From Bacteroidota bacterium (GTDB taxonomy: Bacteria > Bacteroidota > Ignavibacteria > Kryptoniales > JAKASW01), in the NCBI GenBank assembly GCA_021789975.1, contig JAJYIT010000005.1:1-64000 (forward strand): a DNA stretch of 64,000 nt. The letters run 5' to 3'. Made by a program: the position numbers and the translations under genes. Positions 7,884-45,244 of the stretch are shown here, in pieces; the stretch's first letter is position 1; every line of letters starts with the position of its first letter. The notes under the pieces are model-generated. The model saw nothing but the letters and a program-made list of their open reading frames with translations. It had not been told where the DNA came from and made no database searches.

Positions 7884-8020
7884 GACCGTTTCTTCTCCAT
7901 CGTGATTTGTTCCTTGTGCATTCGAGCGTGATGCGGAAGCTCCTCATTCACATTCTATCTCAAAGTCAACACTGCCTTCGCATTTCTTTCAGACTCAATC
8001 CGATTTTTCCATCTCTCGGC

Positions 8021-8586
8021 TCATCGTCTGATACATGAATTGTAGCAGTAACCCAATCCCAGTGTCGAGTCGCATCCACAGTAGTCATCCTAATAAGTGC
8101 CGTTGTCGGGATCCATCCACTGCACGATGTATGCGCTGTCTATCTCTGAAGACGGAAGACTGCCAGGAGTTCCTTTGTAAATCAGTCTCACTTGTTCAAA
8201 GTAGGTGTCGTTGAGAGCACCGATCGTGTCGTAATCCCAAAGAGCCATTTGCTCTTCGATTCCAATAGGAGGCGATCCAAGGAGCGTATTTGAAGAGTTC
8301 GAGAGATCGTTGCAAACGAACCAGATCGTCTGAGCCGCACCAGGGATCCCGGGTATATCATGCGGGTTCGCGTAGTCAAATGTGTCGGTAGATTCGTTAT
8401 GCAGGACTATACCACTGGAGTCTGCGTACCATGGTGCGCCCTCATCCGCCGGCCAATCCTCCCAATCAGCAACATATTGCTGCCGGAGTTGATCGATTTC
8501 ATTAATGGTCACCTGGCTGACCGGTACTTGAAAATAGCAGGATGCATCGACTTTCAGATCAGGGACTGAACTCTCAGGCTGATTCG
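8021..8586 (-). pseudogene. 3' remnant of a secreted protein gene, with in-frame stop
   Basis: Read on the minus strand from 8586, the frame encodes a clearly protein-like segment (YPNQPESSVPDLKVDASCYF, then a run ending DSAYIVQWMDPDNGTY). A TAG stops it at 8092-8090, but the same frame continues with DDYCGCDSTLGLGYCYN before a TGA at 8023-8021. Cys/Asp-rich segments of this type (DPD..., DD..GCD.TL.LGY.YN) occur in large secreted proteins of T9SS bacteria, to my recollection. The 5' part of the gene is missing: the frame runs straight into the 319-bp duplicated oxidoreductase fragment at 8587. It is therefore truncated and interrupted. The original may have been the gene whose start survives at 9017-8906, but the two halves could also be from different genes. 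Confidence 0.6.
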
Positions 8587-8905
8587 GATACGCGCCGGCG
8601 CTATCGGGCGCATTACTATGATTCAGGAATTTGCACTCCAACCAAATGCGCTGGAGTCTTATCCTAAGTGGCAACAGCTGCCTGAGAATCTAGGGATATT
8701 TTTTGGCTATGGCATCCACAACATCGACAGACTGCGGTGGTTTCTTGGCGAGGAAGCGGAGAGTGTATCCGCGGAGATAACGAAGTCTTCCTCCGGAATT
8801 GAGATCTCCACCATGGCAGTGATAAGATGGCACAACAATGCAATGAGTTCAATATGGAGCAGTGGCGATCTTAAGACACCTGGCTTCCCTACAACCGCAT
8901 TCCGC
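8587..8905 (+). repeat. Perfect 319-bp copy of an internal piece of the oxidoreductase gene at 38.2-39.2 kb
   Basis: By direct comparison, 8587-8905 is identical to 38603-38921, with the same orientation and a constant offset of 30,016. The match begins at GATACGCGCC and ends at CATTCCGC; flanking bases then differ at once on both sides. It encodes, in plus orientation, the middle of a Gfo/Idh/MocA-type oxidoreductase (roughly residues 136-241 of the 340-aa protein). It contains no start or stop of that gene. No inverted or target-site repeats bound it. It is either a recent ectopic copy or an assembly artefact. Confidence 0.95.
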
Positions 8906-9017
8906 GCGACTTGTCATAGACGTAGCCGCTTATAGTGGACGTCTTTTCCCCCTGCGAAAATGCCGGCGCGATGAATACAGAAATACATAACAGTGTCGTA
9001 ACAGACTTTGTTGTCAC
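8906..9017 (-). pseudogene. 5' remnant of a secreted/TonB-receptor-like gene cut by the duplication
   Basis: On the minus strand a GTG at 9017-9015 opens a frame that reads as a signal peptide (TTKSVTTLLCISVFIAPAFS) and then QGEKTSTISGYVYDKS. This is the start of a carboxypeptidase-regulatory-like domain as found at the N-terminus of TonB-dependent receptors. The frame is lost abruptly at 8906, where the duplicated oxidoreductase fragment begins. About 37 codons remain. Either the rest of a receptor gene was deleted, or the gene once continued into the remnant at 8586-8021. The start codon choice is tentative: an in-frame TAG lies upstream and no ATG is available. Confidence 0.55.
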
Positions 9018-9903
9018 GTAAATCTCGTCGAATTTTGTTGACGTACCAAGATTTTCGTTCTTCTACAGAGATGTGGTAAGATTCAGTACGCGATCCCCTT
9101 CTGAAAGATAAACACTCTTTTCCGTGATTGATTGCTTCCTGTTTGATTCATCGTGCACAGCATCATGAAGTTAATGCTACAATGAAGATAAAAAAATGAG
9201 ATTCGGTTGACGCGGGCAGGAAAGTTAGGGAGATTAAGGCAACCAAGAAAAATCTGGAATAAAGACATCTTCGGAAAGTGGTCGCAACTTTTGTTTCCCG
9301 GACTCGACGACTTAACTTACCTCGAAATGTGAGTCCGGCTTATCAAGTTCTCTTTTTCAGCCGATGCGTTTGGCCGACATTGCAAATCGGACCGTACCGT
9401 TCAATTGAAGGACCATCTTACGAGAAACTTCATCGACCCGCCCATTAACTCAGTTCCACCTCGCATAAAGTCAGACAATCTTGATGGTCGATTATAGCCC
9501 CATTCTTCAAGGAGCAAAGCCGACAGTTGCATTTCACGCACGACGTTCGGCGTTTCTCAGGCAAACCGTGCTTCAGTGCCCGTTGAAGCCCGCCTTTCAC
9601 TATTTAAACGCCGCGTTATGTTTGAAGATTACTGCATTCGGGACCCTCTGTCGAGAGGAACATGACCAAAACTGTCGAATAAGGGACGCCGCCTTCTCGT
9701 TTCTTTAATGGAACGGCAGGCTCTCCGGTTCTTCCGGTTCCGAAAAAACTGTACGTTTGTTCAGTTGTTCCTGCGCCTGCCGCGCGTAACTTGGCCGCGA
9801 GTCAGGAAGCGAATATCATTTCCATCTCGGAGACGGCTCTGTCCGCCGTACGCTGCACATCGTGGTGCGGTCTCGGTTATTAAAGCAAATTGAAGGAGTG
9901 AGA
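9018..9903. other. Gene-free stretch
   Basis: Nearly 900 bp without a supportable gene. Short open frames (9083-9268 minus, 9481-9708 plus) have no family features. The final 20 bp hold the ribosome binding site GAAGGAG of the next gene. A GCGTTATG-like motif near 9615 recalls an integron attC end, but no matching partner was found. Confidence 0.5.
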
Positions 9904-12732: not shown

Positions 12733-15700
12733 CTAAAATTCTATTTCAAGATCGTTTGCGCCCTTCGAGAGAAGGATATTGATTGAATGTCCATCAAACG
12801 CGAAGCTTGTCAGCATCTTGCCGTTGAGTTTTACTTCGTCCGGCTTGGATCGCGAAAAGATTGACGCTCTGCTGGCATCCGACGTAACTATCTTCCAATT
12901 CTCATTTCCGTCACCAATCTTCCCAACGAAAGTCGCTGGAGCTTCTGTCTTAATCAGATCGTTTCTTTTGAATCTAAAATACGTACAGCTGCTGGCAGCA
13001 AAGTGTGAAAGCTTCCGATCTCTTATCGAAACTTCGGCAATCCTTCCATCAGTTGCGACCTGTCCAGCTTCCAACCTGGTGCTGCCCGTTCTGAAGAGTA
13101 GCAAGTCAGATCCCATGCCGGTCCTCACATTGACACCAACGCACCCTTTTCCTTCTACTTTCACGATGTCTCCGGAGAGTTCATGCAGCTCACTAGTGCT
13201 CTTCACCGGGTAAAGTACAGTCAGGAAATTCTCGTCCTTGCTTTTCCTCGAATTGCTCACCTGCACGTATCCTGGTTCACGCATCGGCGGGCCGAATCGA
13301 GTCGGGGCTCCGCAGATTTTTATTTCCAGGTTTTGCGGATAAATTACCCGAGCAAATAGAGAAGCGCGGTCAGTCTTGAAAGTGAAGATGTTGTCCGGCT
13401 TCAGGCTGACCTCTTTATGGTTGTTGAAATGAAATAGAAGATCGTATTCATGAGACATACCAGAAGATTTCAGCTTATCATAGATTACAAAGCACTTCCT
13501 GTCCAAGAAAACAATATTTCTCTGGAACTCTCCCAGTTTCCCATAGTAAAGATCAGCCAGTTCCCCGGTAACGGACGAGAAATCGTCCGTTGAAATAAAG
13601 TCGGTTATTCTTGCCATCCTGTTTGCGGCTTTTATAAAGTGGAGATAGTCGCCGCTTTCCTGCGAACCCGCGTGATGATCCACGAGCAGAGTGTTGTGGC
13701 CTACCGGCTGGATGTAGTACCGCTGGTACCATGGATCGGCATAGTAGTTCACGTCACCAGCTTCCGGTATCAACGACTCACCGAACGCATTGAGCTGGAA
13801 ACTGCCCTGGTCGTAATGCTCATGGTTGTACCATGGCCCACAACGGAAGTTCATCACTATGTCATCCGAAGACCAGCCCGACCTGAATACAACGGCACCC
13901 AGCTCGGGAAATTCTTTCGATTCGGGAAGAGAATTCGGAGGTGTTTCGGCGCCGGAATCACTGCCAAACATGAAGTCCAGGATATTGTTGCGAGGACTTT
14001 TCATATAGAACCATTGGAACAATGGATCCTTTGAGTGAGTAGAAAGCCACGCGAACGATGAAAGAGTGCTCAACTCCGGATGGCTGTCGCCGTTGTCCAA
14101 TATTCCCGGCCTAGAATAATTGTAGAGGAAGTACTTGTAAGAGTTAAGTAACCCTTCGCTCGCCAAATCGGGTCCAAGGACATGCCTTATGGCCGAGATG
14201 GTCGGGAGGTCGTTTGATAATGCAAAAGCCTGATAACTTATCCCTTCTCCCCAGGCTCCGGCAGTATCCAAAGTGTTATCGAAATACATCTCAAATTTTC
14301 TTAATAACCCGGAAAGGTACGGCTCAAGATCGCCCAACTTCGGATTGTCACCGTATATTGCGAGAGCACAGCAAATTCCGCCGCCCACAGTGTTTCCGAT
14401 CCAGTTCGTTGTAGCAGACGGTGTCCTGTCGTGCAATACGTATTCGTCATAGGCAGGTATAATACAGTTCTTCAGCAAACCCTCGCTGACTTCGTCTCTC
14501 TCTTTCACAGTCATGAGAGGATAGACGATGTCATAACAGAACGCCGCACGGACCCCGAGCTCGCCCATCGGATAGTAGGTTTCTCTGTGTCTCGCCGCGA
14601 ACCAGGGGTGGTTCCAGGTCTTCCATTTCGCAATTCTAATCAAGGCATCCTTTGCGTAGTCGCCAGCCGACTTATCCCCAGTTACAGCATAGATGAGAGT
14701 GTTCTCGCGCAAAATTTTTCCCGCAGACTCCATTATGCTGAAATAATGCGAGAGAGTCGGAAGCAAATACACCGAATCGAAGACCGCGAAATTGACATCG
14801 GACAAAGATTGCAGACCCAGCTCTCTCGGCGGCACTTCTCTCAGGCTTGAACTTTCAGATCCGAATTTGATCGAACCCACTGTCGATGTTTCTCTCGACT
14901 TCGCCGCTTCTTCGACGAGAGAGTTCCACCATGCTTTCCAGTGTTCCGTCCCGATCTTCTCTTTACAGTTGTCAATCTCTTTCTGTCGAAAGAAAAGCCT
15001 CGGATGCGGCAGGTTCTCCTTTGCCAGCCACACGTTGAACTCGGTCTTGATCTTCTCTCCCTTCCGATTTTCGCCGTCAATCTTTACAGCCCATTGGCCG
15101 GGCAAATCGTGGTCCGAGAAAGTGTAAATATCCTTCTTTCCCCATGAGTTATCGGACAAATTCAAAACCAGGGGGACGTCTTTCATAACAGGTTTGTCTT
15201 CCGGATTGATAAGACTGACGTCCGCTTTACTCAATTTCACTCCACGGGGAAGCTTTGCAGAGAGACCGAGCGGCTCTCCCGCGGTGTAGTGGTGCAATGG
15301 AACTATCATCCCGAGATTCTTCAGGTAATAAGATACCGGCTTCTGAATTTCAAACTGCACGGCTTCCCGGGCGGCAATGCGGAAGTCGCTCAGAAACAGT
15401 TTGTAGGTAACATCCGGGTTGGTCTTCGGGATGTCGGTTGTGATAGAGAACCCACCGATACCGATGCCCGGTTTCATAGCTGCGCTTCCGGCTTTAAAGT
15501 CATCAAGGGACACATTTACCTTGTGCCATTTCCTGTCATCGTTGATCGAAGTGCAATAAGAATATTTACTTCCATCCGACCCATACAGGATCATCGTCAT
15601 CCCTTTGAAGTCGCCGTATCCGTTTGTCTTATAGAAGAAGGACACTTTCGTGGTCGGGCCTGCGACAAGCGCGAGCTTCCTCACAAAACCCATCTTGTGT

Positions 15701-35862: not shown

Positions 35863-37182
35863 TTATATTCGGGACACTTCTTGCATTGCTTTAGAAAAGA
35901 TTTCAACCGCGATGTCACATTCCTCCTGCTTAATCACGAGCGGCGGAGCAACCCGAATAACATTACCGTACATGCCGACTCGTCCGAGCATAAGGCCGAA
36001 TTCTGCACAGCGTTTGATGATCTTTCTGCATAAATCCGGATCCGGATCGCGACTCTTTTTGTCTTTCACTATTTCGATCCCGATAACCAGACCCATTCCG
36101 CGGACGTCGCCCACAAATTCAAACTTCTTCCAGAGTTCAGTCAGTCGGGAAAGAAGATATTCTCCCTGAATCCTGGAATTCTCAGGAAGGTTTTCTCTTT
36201 TCATAATATCGATGACTGCAAGTGCTGCGGCACTTGAAAGCGGATTGCCGCCTGTGGTACTTGACATTTCACCCGGAAGCATGCTCTCGAACACTTTGCT
36301 CTCACCGGCCAGTGCGGAAGTCGGGACTCCGCTCCCGATTCCCTTTCCAAGACATATCATTTGAGGTTTTATCTGCTCCCATTCGATTGCGAACAACTTC
36401 CCTGTTCTGCCGAACGACGACTGGACTTCGTCGACTATGAGAATCAGGCCTCGACTTGCGGCCCACTTCTCCAACTCTTTCAGCCATCCTTTCGGAGGAA
36501 ATATGAAGCCCGCTGTACCCTGGTACGGCTCGACGATTACCGCTCCCAAATCTCCCGTCGTACTTGATTCAATGATTCTATCGAGAGCTTTGATGCAGTA
36601 GTAGTCGCACTCGGGAAAAGTTTTTTCGTAGACGCATCTGTAACAATTTCCATACGGTGCCATCACTCCACCGGGGAGCTGCGGCCCAAACTTGCGCCGG
36701 GTGTTAACGCTTCCGGAGACACTCATCGGCCCGTAGGTCCTGCCGTGGAACGCACCGTAGAACGCAAGGATCTCATGCTTACCGGAGTACCTCTTCGCGA
36801 TCCGTATCGCAGCTTCCGTTGCCTCAGCACCGGTCGTCAGAAGAAAGACTTTGTCGATATTGTCCGGGAGCAGCTCAACAAGTTTCTGAGAGAGATTAAT
36901 TCTCTCGGGAGTTGGGAACGAATAACAATTGAGAAGTCTGTGCGCCTGCCTTTCGATCGCGGCGACATGTTTCGGATTCGAGTGCCCGACGTTTGTCACG
37001 AGAACTCCGGACGTAAAATCCAGGTAGAGATTTCCGTCGACATCAGTAATCCAGACCCCCTCGGCGTGATCCCACACTACAGGGATTTGATCTGCCATAC
37101 TCGGGGGTTCATACTCTTTTGCGGTCCGCAGAAATTCTAGAGAACGCGGACCGGGGACTGACCTTTCTACCAATTTAGCCAC
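35863..37182 (-). CDS. Class III PLP-dependent aminotransferase
   Basis: A 439-aa aminotransferase of the GABA/ornithine omega-aminotransferase fold type, moving an amino group from a substrate to a 2-oxo acid. GTG start at 37182 follows AAGGTGA. The PLP lysine is K280 in MICLGKGIGSG; D251 in LILIVDEVQSSFGRTG binds the pyridine nitrogen; GAEATEAAIRIA and FHGRTYG are further signatures. A Cys-rich insert (YGNCYRC ... ECDYYC; C180, C183, C192, C196) recalls a subgroup of class III enzymes that may bind a metal or form disulfides. It is the first gene after the minus-strand promoter at 37224-37252, opposite the IclR regulator, so its substrate is probably close to the inducing compound. Confidence 0.92.
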   Translation of the reverse strand: MAKLVERSVPGPRSLEFLRTAKEYEPPSMADQIPVVWDHAEGVWITDVDGNLYLDFTSGVLVTNVGHSNPKHVAAIERQAHRLLNCYSFPTPERINLSQKLVELLPDNIDKVFLLTTGAEATEAAIRIAKRYSGKHEILAFYGAFHGRTYGPMSVSGSVNTRRKFGPQLPGGVMAPYGNCYRCVYEKTFPECDYYCIKALDRIIESSTTGDLGAVIVEPYQGTAGFIFPPKGWLKELEKWAASRGLILIVDEVQSSFGRTGKLFAIEWEQIKPQMICLGKGIGSGVPTSALAGESKVFESMLPGEMSSTTGGNPLSSAAALAVIDIMKRENLPENSRIQGEYLLSRLTELWKKFEFVGDVRGMGLVIGIEIVKDKKSRDPDPDLCRKIIKRCAEFGLMLGRVGMYGNVIRVAPPLVIKQEECDIAVEIFSKAMQEVSRI

Positions 37183-37379: not shown

Positions 37380-38159
37380 GTGACAACTAAAGTAAAAGTG
37401 GTCTCTAAGACTTTCGAAATTCTTGAGGCTTTAGGCGAAGGCACCCGGCTGGGATTAAGAGAGATTACGGAGCGGGTTTCCTACCCGAAGCCTACGGTCT
37501 TCAGATTGCTCAGCACACTTGAGCAACTCGGCTACGTCGAGCAGGACAAAAAGGATTTCGCTTACACGCTTAGCTCGAAGCTTGTGCTCCTGACTCGAAG
37601 TCTAAGCGGCGGCAGCGGACTGATCGCCGTAGCACGTCCGCACATGGAGATGCTGCACAAGCGCTTCGGGGAGACAGTAAATCTCGCACGGCTTGTAGAT
37701 GACCGCGCGGTCTATGTAAGCATATTGGAATCAAAAGAAGCGTTCAGGATCAGCGACAGCGTTGGAGACGTCGCACCGTTTCATGCGACTTCGATCGGAA
37801 AAGCAATTGCGGCTTTTCTTCCGAAAGAGAAACGTGCCGCTCGCTTCAAGAACTATGATTTCTCGGCATTCACACGAAAAACAATTTCTGGAATTGAAGA
37901 GCTGCAGGAACAGCTGGACGAGGTAAAGAAAGCAGGGTACGCATTGGACAATGAAGAAGGACACGATGGAGTTATTTGTGTCGGGGCCCCGATCTTCAAT
38001 AATGAACATTATGCATTCGCCGCGTTGAGCATTTCAATGCCGAAAGTTCGGGCGAAAAAATCCGTCATGGACGAAGTTAAGGAACAGTTGCCGCGGGAAG
38101 GAATTGCCATTTCACTCGAACTCGGAGTCACCGACATTGCAAAGTGCTTTGCAGCCTAG
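37380..38159 (+). CDS. IclR-family transcriptional regulator
   Basis: A 259-aa ligand-responsive DNA-binding protein. GTG start at 37380 follows GGAGG with ideal spacing; the overlapping ATG reads directly into a stop. The N-terminal winged helix-turn-helix spans about residues 5-65 (VVSKTFEILEALGEGTRLGL, then PKPTVFRLLSTLEQLGYVEQ). The GAF-like IclR effector domain follows, with GETVNLARLVDDRAVYVSI, PFHATSIGKAIAAFLP, GYALDNEEGHDGVICVGAPI and AALSISMPKVR. It is divergent from the large catabolic array and heads the operon of oxidoreductase, symporter and amidohydrolases. It therefore probably controls both, with a pathway intermediate as effector. Members of this family can activate or repress. 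Confidence 0.95.
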   Translation: MTTKVKVVSKTFEILEALGEGTRLGLREITERVSYPKPTVFRLLSTLEQLGYVEQDKKDFAYTLSSKLVLLTRSLSGGSGLIAVARPHMEMLHKRFGETVNLARLVDDRAVYVSILESKEAFRISDSVGDVAPFHATSIGKAIAAFLPKEKRAARFKNYDFSAFTRKTISGIEELQEQLDEVKKAGYALDNEEGHDGVICVGAPIFNNEHYAFAALSISMPKVRAKKSVMDEVKEQLPREGIAISLELGVTDIAKCFAA

Positions 38160-38198
38160 CGCTGCCATCAACGGATCTTGTCATTGCACACTTGATCG

Positions 38199-39221
38199 AT
38201 GACTCCAATCAGGATCGGCATAATAGGTTCCGGGTTCATCGCTCGCACTCATGCGGTCTCCATAAAGAGATATCTGAAGGGAGCGGTGCTGGCAGGAGTA
38301 TCCGGAGGCAAGAGAGCTGCGACTCTCGCTGCAGAATTTGGCGTGACGAACTTCCCTTCAGTCGAACATCTGGCGGCAGACAAGGATATCGACGCCGTAA
38401 TCATCACATCACCTCACTCAATTCACTTCACGCACGCCCTGATTTGCGCTGAGGCTGGCAAACATGTACTTGTCGAAAAGCCGATGGCAACAACTGTGGA
38501 CCAATGTGAGTCAACCGAGAATGCGTTTAGTTCGCGCAAACTCGTGCTCATGGTCGCTTTCACTCAAAGATACAGAGAAGCCAACCGAAGAGCATTTGAA
38601 CTGATACGCGCCGGCGCTATCGGGCGCATTACTATGATTCAGGAATTTGCACTCCAACCAAATGCGCTGGAGTCTTATCCTAAGTGGCAACAGCTGCCTG
38701 AGAATCTAGGGATATTTTTTGGCTATGGCATCCACAACATCGACAGACTGCGGTGGTTTCTTGGCGAGGAAGCGGAGAGTGTATCCGCGGAGATAACGAA
38801 GTCTTCCTCCGGAATTGAGATCTCCACCATGGCAGTGATAAGATGGCACAACAATGCAATGAGTTCAATATGGAGCAGTGGCGATCTTAAGACACCTGGC
38901 TTCCCTACAACCGCATTCCGCTCGCTGGTTATAGGTGAAAAAGGGATGCTGGACGTTGACGGATACGGCGCTCTACGAATGAGCGTCGACTCAAAACCGT
39001 GGGAGACATTATTTCAGCAGCCGCCGATAGACTGGCGGGGCGAAGGGATGTTCGCTGAGATCAGGATGGGATCGTTCAACGCGCAGGACCAGGAATTTGT
39101 AAACTCCATTTTGGAAGGCCGCAAACCGGCGATCACCGGCGAGGACGGACGAAAGTCAGTGGCCATTGCTCTCGCAGCCTACCAGGCGGCAGCGGAACAC
39201 AAAGTGATTCAACTTAAATAA
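38199..39221 (+). CDS. Gfo/Idh/MocA-family oxidoreductase (source of the duplicated segment)
   Basis: A 340-aa NAD(P)-dependent oxidoreductase. The Rossmann domain starts IRIGIIGSGFIARTHA; the EKP motif is HVLVEKPMATT; the substrate domain has FTQRYREANRRAFEL and FFGYGIHNIDRLRWFLGE, with the catalytic His in GIHNID. The middle of the gene (38603-38921) is present as an exact second copy at 8587-8905. The gene itself is intact and in frame, 39 bp after the IclR stop and 16 bp before the symporter. Together with the paralog at 31496-32512 the locus encodes two such enzymes, suggesting a double oxidation, or oxidation and reduction with epimerisation, of a cyclic polyol or sugar acid. Confidence 0.93.
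   Translation: MTPIRIGIIGSGFIARTHAVSIKRYLKGAVLAGVSGGKRAATLAAEFGVTNFPSVEHLAADKDIDAVIITSPHSIHFTHALICAEAGKHVLVEKPMATTVDQCESTENAFSSRKLVLMVAFTQRYREANRRAFELIRAGAIGRITMIQEFALQPNALESYPKWQQLPENLGIFFGYGIHNIDRLRWFLGEEAESVSAEITKSSSGIEISTMAVIRWHNNAMSSIWSSGDLKTPGFPTTAFRSLVIGEKGMLDVDGYGALRMSVDSKPWETLFQQPPIDWRGEGMFAEIRMGSFNAQDQEFVNSILEGRKPAITGEDGRKSVAIALAAYQAAAEHKVIQLK
38603..38921 (+). repeat. Second copy of the 319-bp perfect repeat (inside the oxidoreductase gene)
   Basis: Identical over its full length to 8587-8905. Here the sequence is in its natural context, reading through codons ~136-241 of the intact oxidoreductase, so this is the donor copy and the one at 8.6 kb is the derived copy. Confidence 0.95.
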
Positions 39222-39237
39222 CCGGACAGGCTGAAAA

Positions 39238-40998
39238 TTGGACACCGGAAAGGCCCTTCAATCATACGACTATATTATTATTGCCGGATACTTCCTGATT
39301 ATCCTGGGCACCGCCGCCTACTTTTCAAAAAGGACAAAACTGTCTCGGGACTTCTTCATCGCCGGCGGTACGATGCCGTGGTGGCTGGCGGGAATTTCTT
39401 TTTTCATGGCAAGCCACAGTGCACTTAGCTTTGTAATGTACGGTCAGCTCGGATACAAGTACGGTATCACCGCAGTGCTTATATTCCAGGTCAGCGTAAC
39501 TGGACTTGTCCTGGCGGGCCTCTACGTTGCCAAAAGATGGCGCAGATCTCGCACAGTCACACCGATTCAGTTCCTCGAGCGGCGCTACAGCCTCTACATG
39601 AGGCAGGCGCTCGCCTGGACCGGTTTCCCCGTCAGGATAATGGATGACGCGATGAAGATTTTCTCCACCGCAATTTTCGTGTATGTCGGGATGAAGCTTG
39701 CCGTCATCAGTCTCCCGGCGGCAATCACTCTTGTAGGAATTGTGATGATCATCTACGCTCTCACCGGGGGACAGAAAGGCGTAATCGTCACAGACTTCCT
39801 TCAGTTTATTATAACCATGATTATAGTCATTGTGATTCTGGTACTCACAATTCTACGGTTCTACAAATCGGGTTTTTCGGTTAGCCAGCTACCGTCAGGT
39901 TTTCTGAGTCCATTCTCCGGTCCCTATCATGCCTTCGACTATCTTTCTTTTATAGCCCTCATGATAATCTCCTACAACACAATGTGGTCACTGGTCCACA
40001 AATTCAATTGCGTTCCGACTGAAAAAGACGCCAGCAAGGTTGCATGGCTTGTCGCTGTATTGAATCTCATTGCCCCGATAATATTCTTTTCGCCCTCCAT
40101 ATTTGCCCGGTTAATCTTGCCCAAACTGGCACACCCCGAATATAGTTATGCGGCTATCGCTTTCACTGTCCTTCCCACCGGAATGATGGGCATTCTGGTC
40201 GTCGGAATGTTTGCTTCGACAATCGCCACTATGGGGTCTGAGTTTAATGTGCTGGCCGGCATACTTACCAATGATCTCTACAAACGAATCTTCAAACCCG
40301 ATGCGAGCGACCGACAACTTGTAAAGGTAGGCAAGATTGCCACGATTGTAGCAGGAGGGTTGATCATCCTCATGGCAACGATTGTCGCTAACCTCAAGGG
40401 ATTCAATCTATTCGACATAATGTTGAAATCGTTCGGAGCACTCCTTCCAGCAACGGCTCTCCCAATCCTTATGGGCTTTTTCTGGAAGAGGATCTCTGCC
40501 CGCGGAGCTCTCTACGGCCTAATCGCAGGTGCAATAACAGGAACGGTGCTGGTTATAATAAACGCATTACTGATGGACGCAAATGCTTCGAGGTTCGCCA
40601 GCGATCCCACTCTGCAATACTGGTTGAAGCAGGGATGGGATTCCGGAGCGATACTCTTCAACAGCGGTGTAACGATCCTGGCGATGTACTTCGCGTCACT
40701 TCGCTATCCCGGCTCAACTGAAGAGAGGAAAACCGCAGAAAGTTATTTCAAAGATCTCGATACGAACATAGTGGTGGATGCTGCAGACTCAGTAATAGAA
40801 ACGAAGCTGTCTAACGGACAGATAGTCGCTGTCGCTACACTTTTGTTCGGAGCGCTCGTGATAGTGATCGGTGCCCTGCTTGCATTACACGGTGGCTACA
40901 ATACGGCACCCGCTATGAACATCGGCACCGGCGTTTTCCTCTCTCTGATCGGAATTGCAATATACATCAAGGAGCATCGTGACAAAAGAAAACGATGA
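39238..40998 (+). CDS. Sodium:solute symporter (SSS family)
   Basis: A 586-aa inner-membrane transporter with about 14 transmembrane helices, using the sodium gradient to import a solute. It starts at TTG 39238, 16 bp after the oxidoreductase. Family features include the first helix with a following SRDFFIAGGTMPWW motif, AGISFFMASHSALSFVMYGQ, YALTGGQKGVIVTDFLQF (the SSS signature region) and the later VVGMFASTIATMGSEFNVLAGI. The C-terminal extension (about residues 490-586) has two further hydrophobic segments. It is in the IclR operon and is the only inner-membrane importer near the catabolic genes, so it likely brings in the monomeric product of the secreted lyase and glycosidases. Confidence 0.93.
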   Translation: MDTGKALQSYDYIIIAGYFLIILGTAAYFSKRTKLSRDFFIAGGTMPWWLAGISFFMASHSALSFVMYGQLGYKYGITAVLIFQVSVTGLVLAGLYVAKRWRRSRTVTPIQFLERRYSLYMRQALAWTGFPVRIMDDAMKIFSTAIFVYVGMKLAVISLPAAITLVGIVMIIYALTGGQKGVIVTDFLQFIITMIIVIVILVLTILRFYKSGFSVSQLPSGFLSPFSGPYHAFDYLSFIALMIISYNTMWSLVHKFNCVPTEKDASKVAWLVAVLNLIAPIIFFSPSIFARLILPKLAHPEYSYAAIAFTVLPTGMMGILVVGMFASTIATMGSEFNVLAGILTNDLYKRIFKPDASDRQLVKVGKIATIVAGGLIILMATIVANLKGFNLFDIMLKSFGALLPATALPILMGFFWKRISARGALYGLIAGAITGTVLVIINALLMDANASRFASDPTLQYWLKQGWDSGAILFNSGVTILAMYFASLRYPGSTEERKTAESYFKDLDTNIVVDAADSVIETKLSNGQIVAVATLLFGALVIVIGALLALHGGYNTAPAMNIGTGVFLSLIGIAIYIKEHRDKRKR

Positions 40999-41773
40999 GC
41001 CGATCCAAATGAGCGAAGCTACCGATCTTCAATTGTTCGACTGTAACTGCTTGGTGGGGAAAAGGGCAGATCGTCGGGAGGGCGAGCCGTGGTCGCTTGA
41101 CCAATTGAAAACAGACATGGGGTATTATCACATTTCAGAAGCTCTCGTGTCCCATGCGCTGAGTCGCGACTACGATCCGGCGGCTGGAAACAGAGAAATA
41201 GTCGAACTCCTCAAGGGATCGGACAGGATCTACCCCGTCTGGGCAATACTTCCGACGGCCAGCGGAGAATTAAGTGACGCCGAACAATTCATCCGGGATA
41301 TGCTCGACAGTGGTGCAAAAGCTGTGATCGCCTTCCCAAGGTTTCAGAGCTATTCGCTCGCATCATGGTCTCTCGGTAAATTGTTGTCAGCTCTTGAGCA
41401 TCATCGGATACCGATGCTGTTGCCGTTTCAACAGTTTGACTGGAACGAAGTTTACACACTGTGCCATGAACATCCAGCTCTGCCGGTAATAACAACCGGA
41501 ATAAATTACAGACAGCTGAGGTATCTCTTGCCATTGTGGGAGACAAACAGGAACCTTTACGTCGATACATCGTGGTTCTCCCTTGCGGACCTTCTCCCCT
41601 TTCTCAAGGAGAAAGGATATCTAGGTCAGCTTCTTTTTGGGACTAATTATCCAGCATATACGCCGGCAGCGGCCATCTCTATGATCACATATGCCAATGT
41701 TGGAGTGGAAGAAAAGAGACAGGTCGGGAGCGGAAACCTTCGTGCTCTCATCAAAAATATTAGAATCGATTAA
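40979..41773 (+). CDS. Amidohydrolase-fold protein lacking metal ligands (probable pseudoenzyme)
   Basis: A 264-aa TIM-barrel protein of the amidohydrolase_2 type. The GTG at 40979 has AAGGAG in front and overlaps the symporter end by 20 bp; ATG 41009 is an alternative. Compared with the next gene, the same architecture is present but every metal-site motif is altered. The first-strand HxH is DCNCLVG (C22, C24), the barrel His motifs are replaced (MLLPFQQFD, VITTGINY), and the final FGTD is FGTNYP (N223 for Asp). It therefore probably cannot bind the usual divalent metal and may be a partner subunit or regulator of the active paralog encoded immediately downstream. It is not broken: the frame is full length. 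Confidence 0.8.
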   Translation: MTKENDEPIQMSEATDLQLFDCNCLVGKRADRREGEPWSLDQLKTDMGYYHISEALVSHALSRDYDPAAGNREIVELLKGSDRIYPVWAILPTASGELSDAEQFIRDMLDSGAKAVIAFPRFQSYSLASWSLGKLLSALEHHRIPMLLPFQQFDWNEVYTLCHEHPALPVITTGINYRQLRYLLPLWETNRNLYVDTSWFSLADLLPFLKEKGYLGQLLFGTNYPAYTPAAAISMITYANVGVEEKRQVGSGNLRALIKNIRID

Positions 41774-41778
41774 GGAAC

Positions 41779-42570
41779 ATGCTCACCCTACCCCTTGTCC
41801 GCAATCTGTTTATAGGGGGACCACTCCGTGACGAAGTTATCATTGACGCTCACATGCATATCGGCAAGTACTACAATTTTCTGATCCCAAGCACGGGAGT
41901 CGCGGCCGTAATAGAGAACGCAAAAAGGATCGGTATCACACGATTGTATGGATCGAGTCTGTTGTCACTCAGAAACGATGCGATTGCTGGGAACAATATG
42001 GTCATTGAGGCTCACAAAGCCTATCCTGGGGTGTTCTTCCCGTATCTGGTTGTGAAACCGAACTACGCGGAGGAAACGAGAGACATATTGGATTTAGCCG
42101 AAAGAGAACACACGAAGCAGTTCAAGATACACGACGACGGCAATGGCATCCCGTTCGACCATAAGAATTATATCCCGCTTTACGAGTATGCTGATCAAAT
42201 CGGCGCGGTCATTCTCGCGCATACATATGGAGAGATGCACGTGGCTCCACTCATTAAAGTGGCGATGCAGTTCAAGTCGGTGAAAATACTTCTCGGACAT
42301 TCTGGAATAACTGATGAAGATGCCTACTACCTCGCAGCCCGCTCATGTCCGAACATTTTCCTCGAGACATGTAATTCCCTGGCATGGTACGGCCTTATCG
42401 AACGCTTGGTAAAAAAAGCTGGTGCCGATAGGATTTGTTTTGGAACGGATATGCCTTTCATGTCACCGGATCAACAGATCGGACGTATCCTCGGAGCGAG
42501 GATTAGCGATGAAGATAAACGTAGAATACTAGGACTGAATGCACTAGAAGTGTTCCCCAAGAAGCTGTGA
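41779..42570 (+). CDS. Metal-dependent amidohydrolase (amidohydrolase_2 family)
   Basis: A 263-aa TIM-barrel hydrolase or decarboxylase/lactonase-type enzyme. AAGGAAC precedes the ATG, only 5 bp after the degenerate paralog. Metal-site motifs are intact: VIIDAHMHIGK (H25, H27), QFKIHDDG, ILAHTYGEMH, ILLGHSGITDEDAY and ICFGTDMPF with D224. Family members hydrolyse sugar lactones (fucono- and rhamnono-lactonases) or act on aromatic acids. Downstream of two dehydrogenases of the Gfo/Idh/MocA type, a sugar-lactone hydrolase is a reasonable inference. The stop codon abuts the left end of an IS200-like element. Confidence 0.88.
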   Translation: MLTLPLVRNLFIGGPLRDEVIIDAHMHIGKYYNFLIPSTGVAAVIENAKRIGITRLYGSSLLSLRNDAIAGNNMVIEAHKAYPGVFFPYLVVKPNYAEETRDILDLAEREHTKQFKIHDDGNGIPFDHKNYIPLYEYADQIGAVILAHTYGEMHVAPLIKVAMQFKSVKILLGHSGITDEDAYYLAARSCPNIFLETCNSLAWYGLIERLVKKAGADRICFGTDMPFMSPDQQIGRILGARISDEDKRRILGLNALEVFPKKL

Positions 42571-43138
42571 ACTACCACCGGCAAAACCGGTGGCTTCTGA
42601 AAAACACTTTGCATCTATAAGAAGTCAAAACTCCCCTGCTGTTGTTCTTCCTTCTTCTCCTCTTTTTCCTGGTACTTCACGTACCTCCTGATCATCTCCT
42701 CGTCTATTCCAACCGTGCTCACAAAGTATCCTCGTGCCCAAAAGTAGTTCCCACAATATGGCTTCTTTCGCAATCCACCGTAACTCTTGAATAGCTTTAT
42801 CGCCGTCTTTCCTTTCACTGTCCCCACGTATTCTGACAACGATACCTTCGGTGGTATCGATACAAGTACATGAACATGGGCTTCCTGTACATTCAATTCC
42901 TCCACTTCACATCCAAGCCATTCGCTCATCCCCTTTATGTCCCGTTCCAACTCCTCTTTCACTGCTCCTTTCAATATCCGGTACCGATACTTCGGTACCC
43001 ACACTATGTGGTACTTGCAGTAGTAGATCGCATCTGAAAGCTTCTTGTATTTTCCTATTCCGCTTCAATCTAACGCCTTTCTACCGGCGAAGCCACCTTT
43101 ACATCACCACTGCCTTAGGCAGTGGGTTTCTACGTCGG
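42571..43138 (-). mobile_element. IS200/IS605-family insertion element
   Basis: A compact element of ~568 bp carrying one HUH transposase gene on the minus strand and subterminal hairpins instead of inverted repeats. The left hairpin is CCACCGG-N5-CCGGTGG (42574-42592) followed by CTTCTGA. The right hairpin is CCACTGCC-TTA-GGCAGTGG (43107-43125) followed by GTTTCTACGTCGGA. It begins directly after the amidohydrolase stop codon. Both copies in the window are preceded by TGAA(C/G), perhaps the insertion tetranucleotide or pentanucleotide. Exact ends are estimated from the shared sequence with the element at 4841-5036. Confidence 0.85.
42615..43004 (-). CDS. tnpA: IS200-type HUH transposase TnpA (start codon problem)
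   Basis: A Y1 HUH single-strand transposase that cuts and joins the hairpin ends of its element. The HUH motif is H43-V-H45 in EAHVHVLVSIPP and the catalytic tyrosine is probably Y108 in EEMIRRYVKYQE. From the GTG at 43004 only 129 aa are made, beginning inside the conserved first strand (VWVPKYRYRIL). The frame upstream (to 43064) still encodes the expected family N-terminus (KYKKLSDAIYYCKYHIVWVP) but offers no ATG, GTG or TTG, only an ATA at 43058. The start codon has either mutated, leaving a shortened or inactive protein, or a rare ATA start is used. The C-terminal EKEEKKEEQQQ tail is charged. Confidence 0.85.
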   Translation of the reverse strand: MWVPKYRYRILKGAVKEELERDIKGMSEWLGCEVEELNVQEAHVHVLVSIPPKVSLSEYVGTVKGKTAIKLFKSYGGLRKKPYCGNYFWARGYFVSTVGIDEEMIRRYVKYQEKEEKKEEQQQGSFDFL

Positions 43139-43628: not shown

Positions 43629-44221
43629 TTGCATAAATAAGGCAGCACGTAATATAATAAAAAAAGCCAAAAACGAAGGGGCGGTCATTCTCTTCGAAGA
43701 CGAGGCGAGTTTCCGACAAGACCCTACACTCTACCGCACATGGGCGCGCATAGGATCTCAACCAGAAATACCGACCACTGGCAAGAGAAACACCCTCAAG
43801 ATTTTCGGCACCATAGAGTTGTACTGCGCCCGTTTCCTTTATTATTTCCAATCGGTGTTCAACGCCGAAACCTACGTTGCCTATCTCGAAAGAATCGTGC
43901 GCTGCTATTTCCGGCGAAAGATATTCTTGATTCAGGACAATGCCTCCTACTACAAAGACCGAGGTGTTTGGATGTGGTTCTCGGACAATCGGAAACACAT
44001 ATAGGTATTCAATCTTCCTCCGTACTCACCGGAACTCAACGCTCTGGAGAGAATATGGCATCACACACGCTTGCACGGGACACACAACGGGTATTTCCCG
44101 ACTCAAGACGAACTCCGCTCCGTTTTAACCTCAACTTTTCGAAGCATCCAGAAAGATCCCTCTCAGGTTTTTGGATACCTCCATCCATATCAGTGATTGT
44201 TATGTCGCTTTATTTATGCAA
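43629..44221 (+). mobile_element. IS630 (Tc1/mariner-type) remnant with inverted ends
   Basis: TTGCATAAATAAGGC (43629-43643) and GCTTTATTTATGCAA (44207-44221) are inverted repeats matching at 14 of 15 positions. Between them lies the catalytic half of an IS630-like transposase. The N-terminal DNA-binding half is missing, so the element has an internal deletion next to its left end. TATA-rich bases flank both ends, consistent with the TA target preference of the family. Confidence 0.75.
43642..44196 (+). pseudogene. IS630-family transposase fragment with in-frame TAG
   Basis: The frame encodes a DDE domain: AVILFEDEASFRQDPTLYRT (first Asp), IFLIQDNASYYKDRGVWMWF (second Asp) and, after a TAG at 44002-44004, VFNLPPYSPELNALERIWHH (final Glu). 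Reading continues in the same frame to a TGA at 44194. The TAG lies between the second and third catalytic acids, so the protein is dead unless suppressed. The N-terminal helix-turn-helix is absent. Confidence 0.85.
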
Positions 44222-45101
44222 TGATATAAAGCAAATGAATGCCTGAGACTATGAAAATACAGCAACGGATTTAATTTTGCTTTTCTTATGAATTTCTTGA
44301 ACTCCTTGTTCATCTTATTCGGCTCAACTTGCACGCCTTCAAGAGTAAATACAAATTCGCAGTTTAACTCCTTCTTCCGTCGCGCTAACAATTCGGTTGC
44401 GGCTTTGTTTAGAGGTATTGATCTAATCTTTTGGGATTTTGTCATGTAACCTCGGTTTTCCAAAATCAGCCTTCGTTTGACCAAATCCACCCGACTCCAT
44501 CTTAGATTAATCACTTCTCCCTGCCGACAGCCCGTATTTACTGCGAAGTTGACAAGGTCTGCCAGTCCTGGATTATCAATGACGGACATAAGAACGTGAA
44601 GTTCATCTCTGCTTAGAAACAAAGGCATCTTCTCCGGCAACATTGGAGTTCGTATGCCAGCACACGGATTTTCCATGATGTACCGTCTATCAACCGCGTA
44701 TTTGAAAGATGCAGATAAGTAGGCAAGGCCTTTTCACCCGGCATATATTGAAGTCTCACGGTACGTTTCTCTATAAAGTCTTCGATGAAAGGTTTTGTGA
44801 AAGTACTTAACGGAACATTGCCAAAGTGATACAGCAGATACTTGAAAGTAGTCCGGTAGTTGCTGGTGGTCTTCGGACTATGAACTGATTCGGAGTGATT
44901 CAGTATCTCGTTCCTGAATTCAGCAAGCGACATTTGAACTGTTTTCTCTCCACATCTTAGCTTTTGTTGTTCTCTGAATTTCACGAGGAATTCTAAATCA
45001 TCCGATTTCAGTTTTGACTTCGTGGATTTTTTATTCCGTTTTCCATCCTTTTCTACAAAGTAAAGGTAGTAGAAACCGTTCTTTTGTTTAGCGAGGAACA
45101 T
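44222..45101 (-). pseudogene. Tyrosine recombinase/integrase, frameshifted and 3'-truncated
   Basis: An ATG at 45101 with AGGAGGTG before it starts an integrase: MFLAKQKNGFYYLYF, then a SAM-like core-binding domain (LAEFRNEILNHSE, KTTSNYRTTFKYLLYHFG). Near 44725 the frame shifts: the sequence LAYLSASFKYAVDRRYIMEN that should follow is in another frame, consistent with loss of one G in GAAAAGGCC. The catalytic domain has Arg I (NTGCRQGEVINLRW) and the H-x-L-R-H box (FHSLRHSFA) but stops there: the right end of the IS630 remnant replaces the segment with the nucleophilic Tyr. The gene points away from, and lies next to, tRNA-Met, the usual position for an element integrated at a tRNA 3' end. 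Confidence 0.85.
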
Positions 45102-45244
45102 GGAACACCTCCTGTGAATTTTGGAGGCAGAAGCACCAAAAGATTGGGCACCCAATTGGCCACTCTCACTCCAAATTTTGTCCTTAAAAATCTTAAAGTG
45201 GAATAAGCCGAAGCTAAAAAATGGGATGGATTTTGAGATTTTCG

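Follow-up and report, generated by a model that had tools for sequence, protein, structure and literature searches.

Enzyme–pseudoenzyme pairs are best known from eukaryotes. In trypanosomes, the AdoMetDC prozyme (PMC5201418) and its counterpart in deoxyhypusine synthase (PMC3663545) are described as dead paralogues that hetero-oligomerise with, and activate, a weak or inactive enzyme. These systems resemble the bacterial pair examined here, P0001 and P0002, in that a dead paralogue stands beside a live homologue, but they concern other enzymes in eukaryotic parasites and their activation was measured, whereas an activation of P0002 by P0001 is one that we infer (PMC5201418, PMC3663545).

For amidohydrolases, our literature search on tandem, two-domain, inactive or pseudo amidohydrolase pairs, including pseudoenzyme heterodimers, found no such pair among the papers it covered, in keeping with the first-pass annotation of this DNA, which had called the arrangement little explored for the family. 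Dihydroorotase is a member of the amidohydrolase superfamily. A dead partner from this superfamily is, however, described in the Pseudomonas ATCase-pDHO complex, where the dead pDHO subunit is needed for the activity of its partner and a homologous fungal pDHO domain is reported to be without zinc ligands (PMC7053772). As described there, that complex has a dead amidohydrolase-superfamily protein as an obligate partner, as P0001 would be, but the protein it serves is an unrelated transcarbamoylase, whereas P0001 is partnered by an active paralogue of its own family, to which its relatives are often fused (PMC7053772). The pseudo-dihydroorotases of class A2 ATCases are defined by an aspartate transcarbamoylase partner, and the partner of P0001 is an Amidohydro_2 protein; among the 13 neighbouring genes scanned against Pfam (three at 37380–40995 and ten at 12733–37182), no transcarbamoylase was found.

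A live model is offered by ACMSD which, like related Amidohydro_2 decarboxylases, is described as holding a single metal with four His and one Asp (PMC9021598), the ligand set that P0002 also has. On its own, an ACMSD monomer reportedly shows no activity because the substrate-binding arginine is contributed by the neighbouring subunit, and the enzyme is described as a homodimer of two live protomers (PMC9021598), whereas in the arrangement proposed here one protomer type would be dead. P0002 matches no NCBIfam ACMSD model. Against this background we propose, with a probability of roughly 60%, that P0001 is a dedicated non-catalytic partner (a prozyme) of P0002 in an obligate heteromer, in which it completes the single active site of P0002.

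The gene pair and its surroundings

The two genes close a same-strand run in the window, by which we mean the whole stretch of 64,000 nucleotides analysed:

35863–37182, minus strand: class III aminotransferase (PF00202, 355.8 bits), divergent neighbour, association only
37380–38159, plus strand: IclR-type regulator (PF01614, 145 bits; PF09339), head of the strand run
38199–39221, plus strand: Gfo/Idh/MocA oxidoreductase (PF01408), probably in the same operon; same gene run in genomes G009 and G010
39238–40998, plus strand: sodium:solute symporter (SSS; PF00474, 117.7 bits), upstream of the pair and on the same strand
40979–41773, plus strand: P0001, metal-less amidohydrolase-like subunit (Amidohydro_2), 264 aa, GTG start, TAA stop
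41779–42570, plus strand: P0002, intact metal-dependent amidohydrolase subunit (Amidohydro_2), 263 aa, ATG start, TGA stop

The run thus reads, in order, regulator, oxidoreductase, symporter, P0001 and P0002. The start of P0001 overlaps the 3' end of the symporter gene by 20 bases, and translational coupling between P0001 and P0002 is plausible, as only 5 bases separate the stop of the former from the ATG of the latter and an AAGGA motif overlaps that stop. The next feature after the pair is a small minus-strand ORF (42615–43004) that by eye looks like an IS200-type transposase; further on, at 44200–45155 and also on the minus strand, are two overlapping ORFs that, again judged by eye, resemble one phage-type integrase split over two frames.

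Homologues of the symporter are found near the pair in G009 and G010 (∼87–89% identity) and near a split pair in G743 and G703 (∼61%). The make-up of the run and this recurrence of the symporter suggest a neighbourhood that imports and degrades a small organic compound.

Class III aminotransferases recur around the pair as well. A cluster of 11 of them spans 11 of the 18 stretches compared; by clustering, one adjoins the majority of the class's fused copies (L052, L055–L058 and L060–L062, with none clustered in L059), and one is annotated near the fused copies of a haloarchaeon (L087). As a clue to a shared pathway this association was set aside: the aminotransferase of the window is only 22–25% identical to those beside the fused genes, and we therefore claim no common pathway.

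Metal site and family assignment

Both proteins belong to the Amidohydro_2 family (Pfam: PF04909; cut-off 26.4 bits), P0002 with a strong match of 84.5 bits and P0001 just above the cut-off with 29.3 bits. The five metal ligands are all present in P0002 (H25, H27, H148, H174 and D224). P0001 has none of the five: N23 and L25 occupy the HxH positions (‘DCNC’), H148 is replaced by P, H174 by G or a gap, and the Asp by N223 (‘FGTN’), so that it lacks what would make it a metal-dependent enzyme. The first-pass annotation, made from the DNA alone, had already described an intact second protein with HxH, barrel His residues and FGTD and a first protein devoid of a metal site, and our results bear it out on both, as well as on the coordinates, frames and sizes of the two genes. 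Among NCBIfam models, P0002 gave only a sub-cut-off TatD-type match and P0001 none.

The P0002-type profile matches ACMSD-type structures; among solved proteins, the metal-less profile comes closest in sequence to PDB 3IRS (E 5e-14), the uncharacterised TIM-barrel protein BB4693 from Bordetella. The single-chain models, built from two-row alignments, are of low confidence (pLDDT 52.8 and 47.6); a Foldseek search with that of P0001 returned nothing at an E-value of 0.001 or better, and its best, weak fold match was again 3IRS (E 2.9e-3). 3IRS is thus the top match of the metal-less type in both sequence and fold, but it also matches the intact profile (E 1.2e-17). None of our conclusions draws on the models.

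Split and fused relatives

Relatives of P0001 were found in 14 of 100 related genomes. In two genomes of the same genus (G009, G010) the same split pair occupies the same operon, while most other relatives are single proteins of ∼530–600 aa, with an N-terminal half like P0001 and a C-terminal half like P0002. Across 14 aligned fused proteins, the C-terminal halves are invariant at the D and both H of a D-x-H-x-H motif, at another two His and at the FGTD Asp (the motif itself varying somewhat), and the N-terminal halves are without metal ligands. The genome of the window itself encodes a second, fused copy on another contig (L062 10609–12207, G000:C17), which adjoins a class III aminotransferase and a gene clustering with a GH38-type protein.

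For a wider genome census we used a profile of 20 metal-less domains (A6), all 20 of which match PF04909 at E 0.01. It matched 60 of 391 genomes of the class (E 1e-12; 38 of them, counted by reading the table, with a high-scoring metal-less-type match), 13 of 150 in the family of G232 (E 1e-8), 7 of 128 in the order of G240 (E 1e-12), 10 of 395 across the phylum (E 1e-15) and 3 of 248 in the order of G232 (E 1e-15), some of these matches being intact enzymes. Altogether, the pair was found in Bacteroidota and in three further lineages from a plasmid collection: 1) one Clostridia record with a split pair (L046, metal-less gene at 7998–8753 and intact gene at 8671–9561), 2) one actinobacterial (Nonomuraea) record with pairs present (L086), and 3) one haloarchaeon, Halomontanus (L047, L087), whose proteins are fused, one of them in the order C then N. 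The plasmid search also gave a weak match to a Klebsiella plasmid (H3); searches of viral contigs and of phage records found no relatives.

Individual loci vary further. On one (L051 3336–6951, G240:C112), a fused copy lies beside a divergent split pair; on another (L185 1327–3863, G1086:C40), a metal-less gene precedes two intact-type genes in a row, of which the latter gives a partial match. A fused homologue of 473 aa (L021 823–2241, G014:C10) has lost the HxH part of its C-terminal domain, through either decay or an assembly fault, and was left out of the loci used for the pairing census.

Pairing and ligand loss

For the pairing census, 111 sequences (the relevant part of the window and 110 loci) were scanned with profiles of both types, each domain being assigned to the better-scoring type; domains covering fewer than 80 profile positions and substring duplicates were dropped. 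Part of these data had gone into the typing profiles, but ligands were scored in a separate step, from an alignment. The census gave 67 non-redundant metal-less domains. Fusion to an intact domain accounts for 40 of them and a same-strand intact neighbour for 25; the remaining two are truncated where their contigs end, and not one stands alone. The pairs occur as 39 fusions in the order N–C and one in the order C–N, with 16 split pairs in the order N then C and nine in the order C then N. For one of the two contig-end cases (G019), a second contig carries an overlapping metal-less end followed by an intact domain, and in G1086, a genome not used for profile building, all five metal-less domains are paired.

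The table also contains 23 unpaired domains, reached via weaker matches and kept as ordinary single enzymes; all are of the intact type, and matching domains that stand alone are thus of that type. The first-pass annotation had suggested searching for conserved adjacency across genomes and had seen a metal-less protein found mostly alone as fatal to a pseudoenzyme partner. Adjacency or fusion holds for 65 of the 67 domains, which leaves the idea standing, and metal-less domains thereby share with prozymes the constant co-occurrence with a partner. Apart from the two contig-cut cases we found no partnerless metal-less domain (n = 67), and we reject a lone or relic copy on this ground.

For the ligand counts, domains covering fewer than 190 profile positions and identical sequences were removed. 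All 88 intact-type domains have the four metal His; D224 is conserved in 81 of them, and the seven others, from the divergent group typified by L051, have an H in its place. Of the 66 metal-less domains, among which near-copies from overlapping loci may remain, 54 keep no ligand, ten keep one and two keep two, so that none retains more than two of the five.

Origin and selection

The two domain types are homologous (hhalign probability 99.9%, E 4e-35) and, together with the ligand counts, this gives the metal-less type two features of a prozyme: homology to its partner and a lack of catalytic residues. In a tree of 77 domains, retained after dropping rows at least 68% identical to a kept row within their group, a single branch (SH-aLRT 86) has all 33 metal-less rows together on its one side, in a topology with long branches and many weak forks. 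A single origin of the metal-less domains is thus likely. Over 23 split pairs, the evolutionary distances of the two partners correlate with r = 0.96 (one pair without a matching row dropped; none of 5000 permutations as high), a correlation that co-inheritance of neighbours alone would also give.

Selection was assessed between the window and the two genomes of its genus. For P0001, dN/dS is 0.10 and 0.11 against G009 and G010, and 0.25 between G009 and G010; the same comparisons give 0.09, 0.07 and 0.19 for P0002, with synonymous sites near saturation in both comparisons that involve the window. By these ratios (∼0.1–0.25) the P0001 gene is under purifying selection. Given this, and its recurrence in all 66 metal-less domains, the ligand loss goes beyond chance. 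Read from the sequences, the pair is an old and recurrent arrangement.

What the metal-less domain may do

Conservation of H59, Y65 and E97 is confined to the metal-less clade of P0001 (40/42, 40/42 and 41/42, respectively) and could point to a pocket of its own; two alternatives to a prozyme are retained on this account. The first is an allosteric ligand sensor, a subunit that would bind substrate or product in its barrel without a metal and tune the active partner. The clade-specific polar set, of which these three residues are part, would suit such a role, as would the full barrel length kept under purifying selection. The set is mostly lost, however, in the divergent metal-less clade (H59 in 4/24, E97 in 5/24), where pairing is equally strict; we consider a sensor unlikely.

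The second is that the metal-less domain is an enzyme in its own right with a new chemistry, metal-free or based on other ligands, making the pair or fusion bifunctional for successive steps. Fusion and adjacency would also fit two consecutive reactions, and in many fused members another site could be built from H59 (44 of 66 metal-less domains), an H at position 123 (49 of 66) and an E at the old H148 position (32 of 66). P0001 itself, though, has Q at position 123 and P at the H148 position, the divergent clade is without most of the set, and no alignment column offers a His or Cys, shared by all 66 metal-less domains, to stand in for the missing ligands. This rules out a conserved alternative metal site in all members, and a second enzyme seems to us rather improbable. 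The first-pass annotation had noted that alternative ligands in the first protein would count against a pseudoenzyme; none is general to the type, while some members, given H59 and the H at position 123, may have a different pocket.

Chance retention of a decaying duplicate next to the gene it came from is hardly credible: one degenerate fused copy (that of G014) would fit it, but the metal-less domains group on one side of the tree although they come from several phyla and from both bacteria and archaea, none of 67 stands alone, the gene is under purifying selection and fusions occur in both orders.

A proposed enzyme–prozyme heteromer

The prozyme reading, which we prefer, would have P0001 and P0002 form a pseudo-symmetric heterodimer, or one continuous chain in the fused versions. 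This would correspond to a homodimer of the ACMSD type with the metal site lost from one of its protomers. The only metal centre, and with it the chemistry, would reside on P0002, and P0001 would provide a partner surface by which the one active site is stabilised and made complete, so that one live and one dead protomer would retain one complete site. The substrate may be a sugar- or carboxylate-type catabolite imported by the neighbouring symporter. Pairing alone speaks for co-selection and not for contact. A physical partnership is favoured by the natural fusions in both orders, and we infer that the two proteins touch and that catalysis needs the partner. Since many bacteria and one archaeon have the dead copy next to a live one or fused with it, P0001 is more likely to be a partner that the enzyme needs than a relic. 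The first-pass annotation's proposal of an obligate heteromer or an allosteric, ligand-sensing subunit finds partial support in the constant pairing and in the two fusion orders.

By analogy to ACMSD, one might guess that R181 of P0001, on the helix after strand 6, is part of the active site. It follows directly on the strand of a lost ligand His and is invariant in its clade (42/42), and P0002 has a D in this column. As an arginine given in trans and specific to the dead subunit its case is weakened, as intact proteins often have R in this column too (29 of 41 among paired domains, 17 of 22 among lone enzymes), and only 6 of 24 divergent metal-less domains do. The partner role is likely; for the arginine, with R so common in intact enzymes and so rare in the divergent clade, any role is a guess.

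Whether these pairs amount to an ancient class of bacterial and archaeal amidohydrolase prozymes that has so far gone unrecognised, of single origin, always paired (fused, or split in either order) and with one composite active site, we judge to be evenly balanced; if so, the current annotation as two separate ‘amidohydrolase family proteins’ would miss an obligate heteromeric enzyme. As the pair occurs in bacteria and a haloarchaeon, both split and fused, what a dead protomer does in a family of symmetric enzymes is directly testable: fused members are a ready 1:1 complex, and split members let each subunit be removed. In practice, the intact gene expressed alone may yield an inactive protein, and a single-enzyme annotation covering both genes may be called for.
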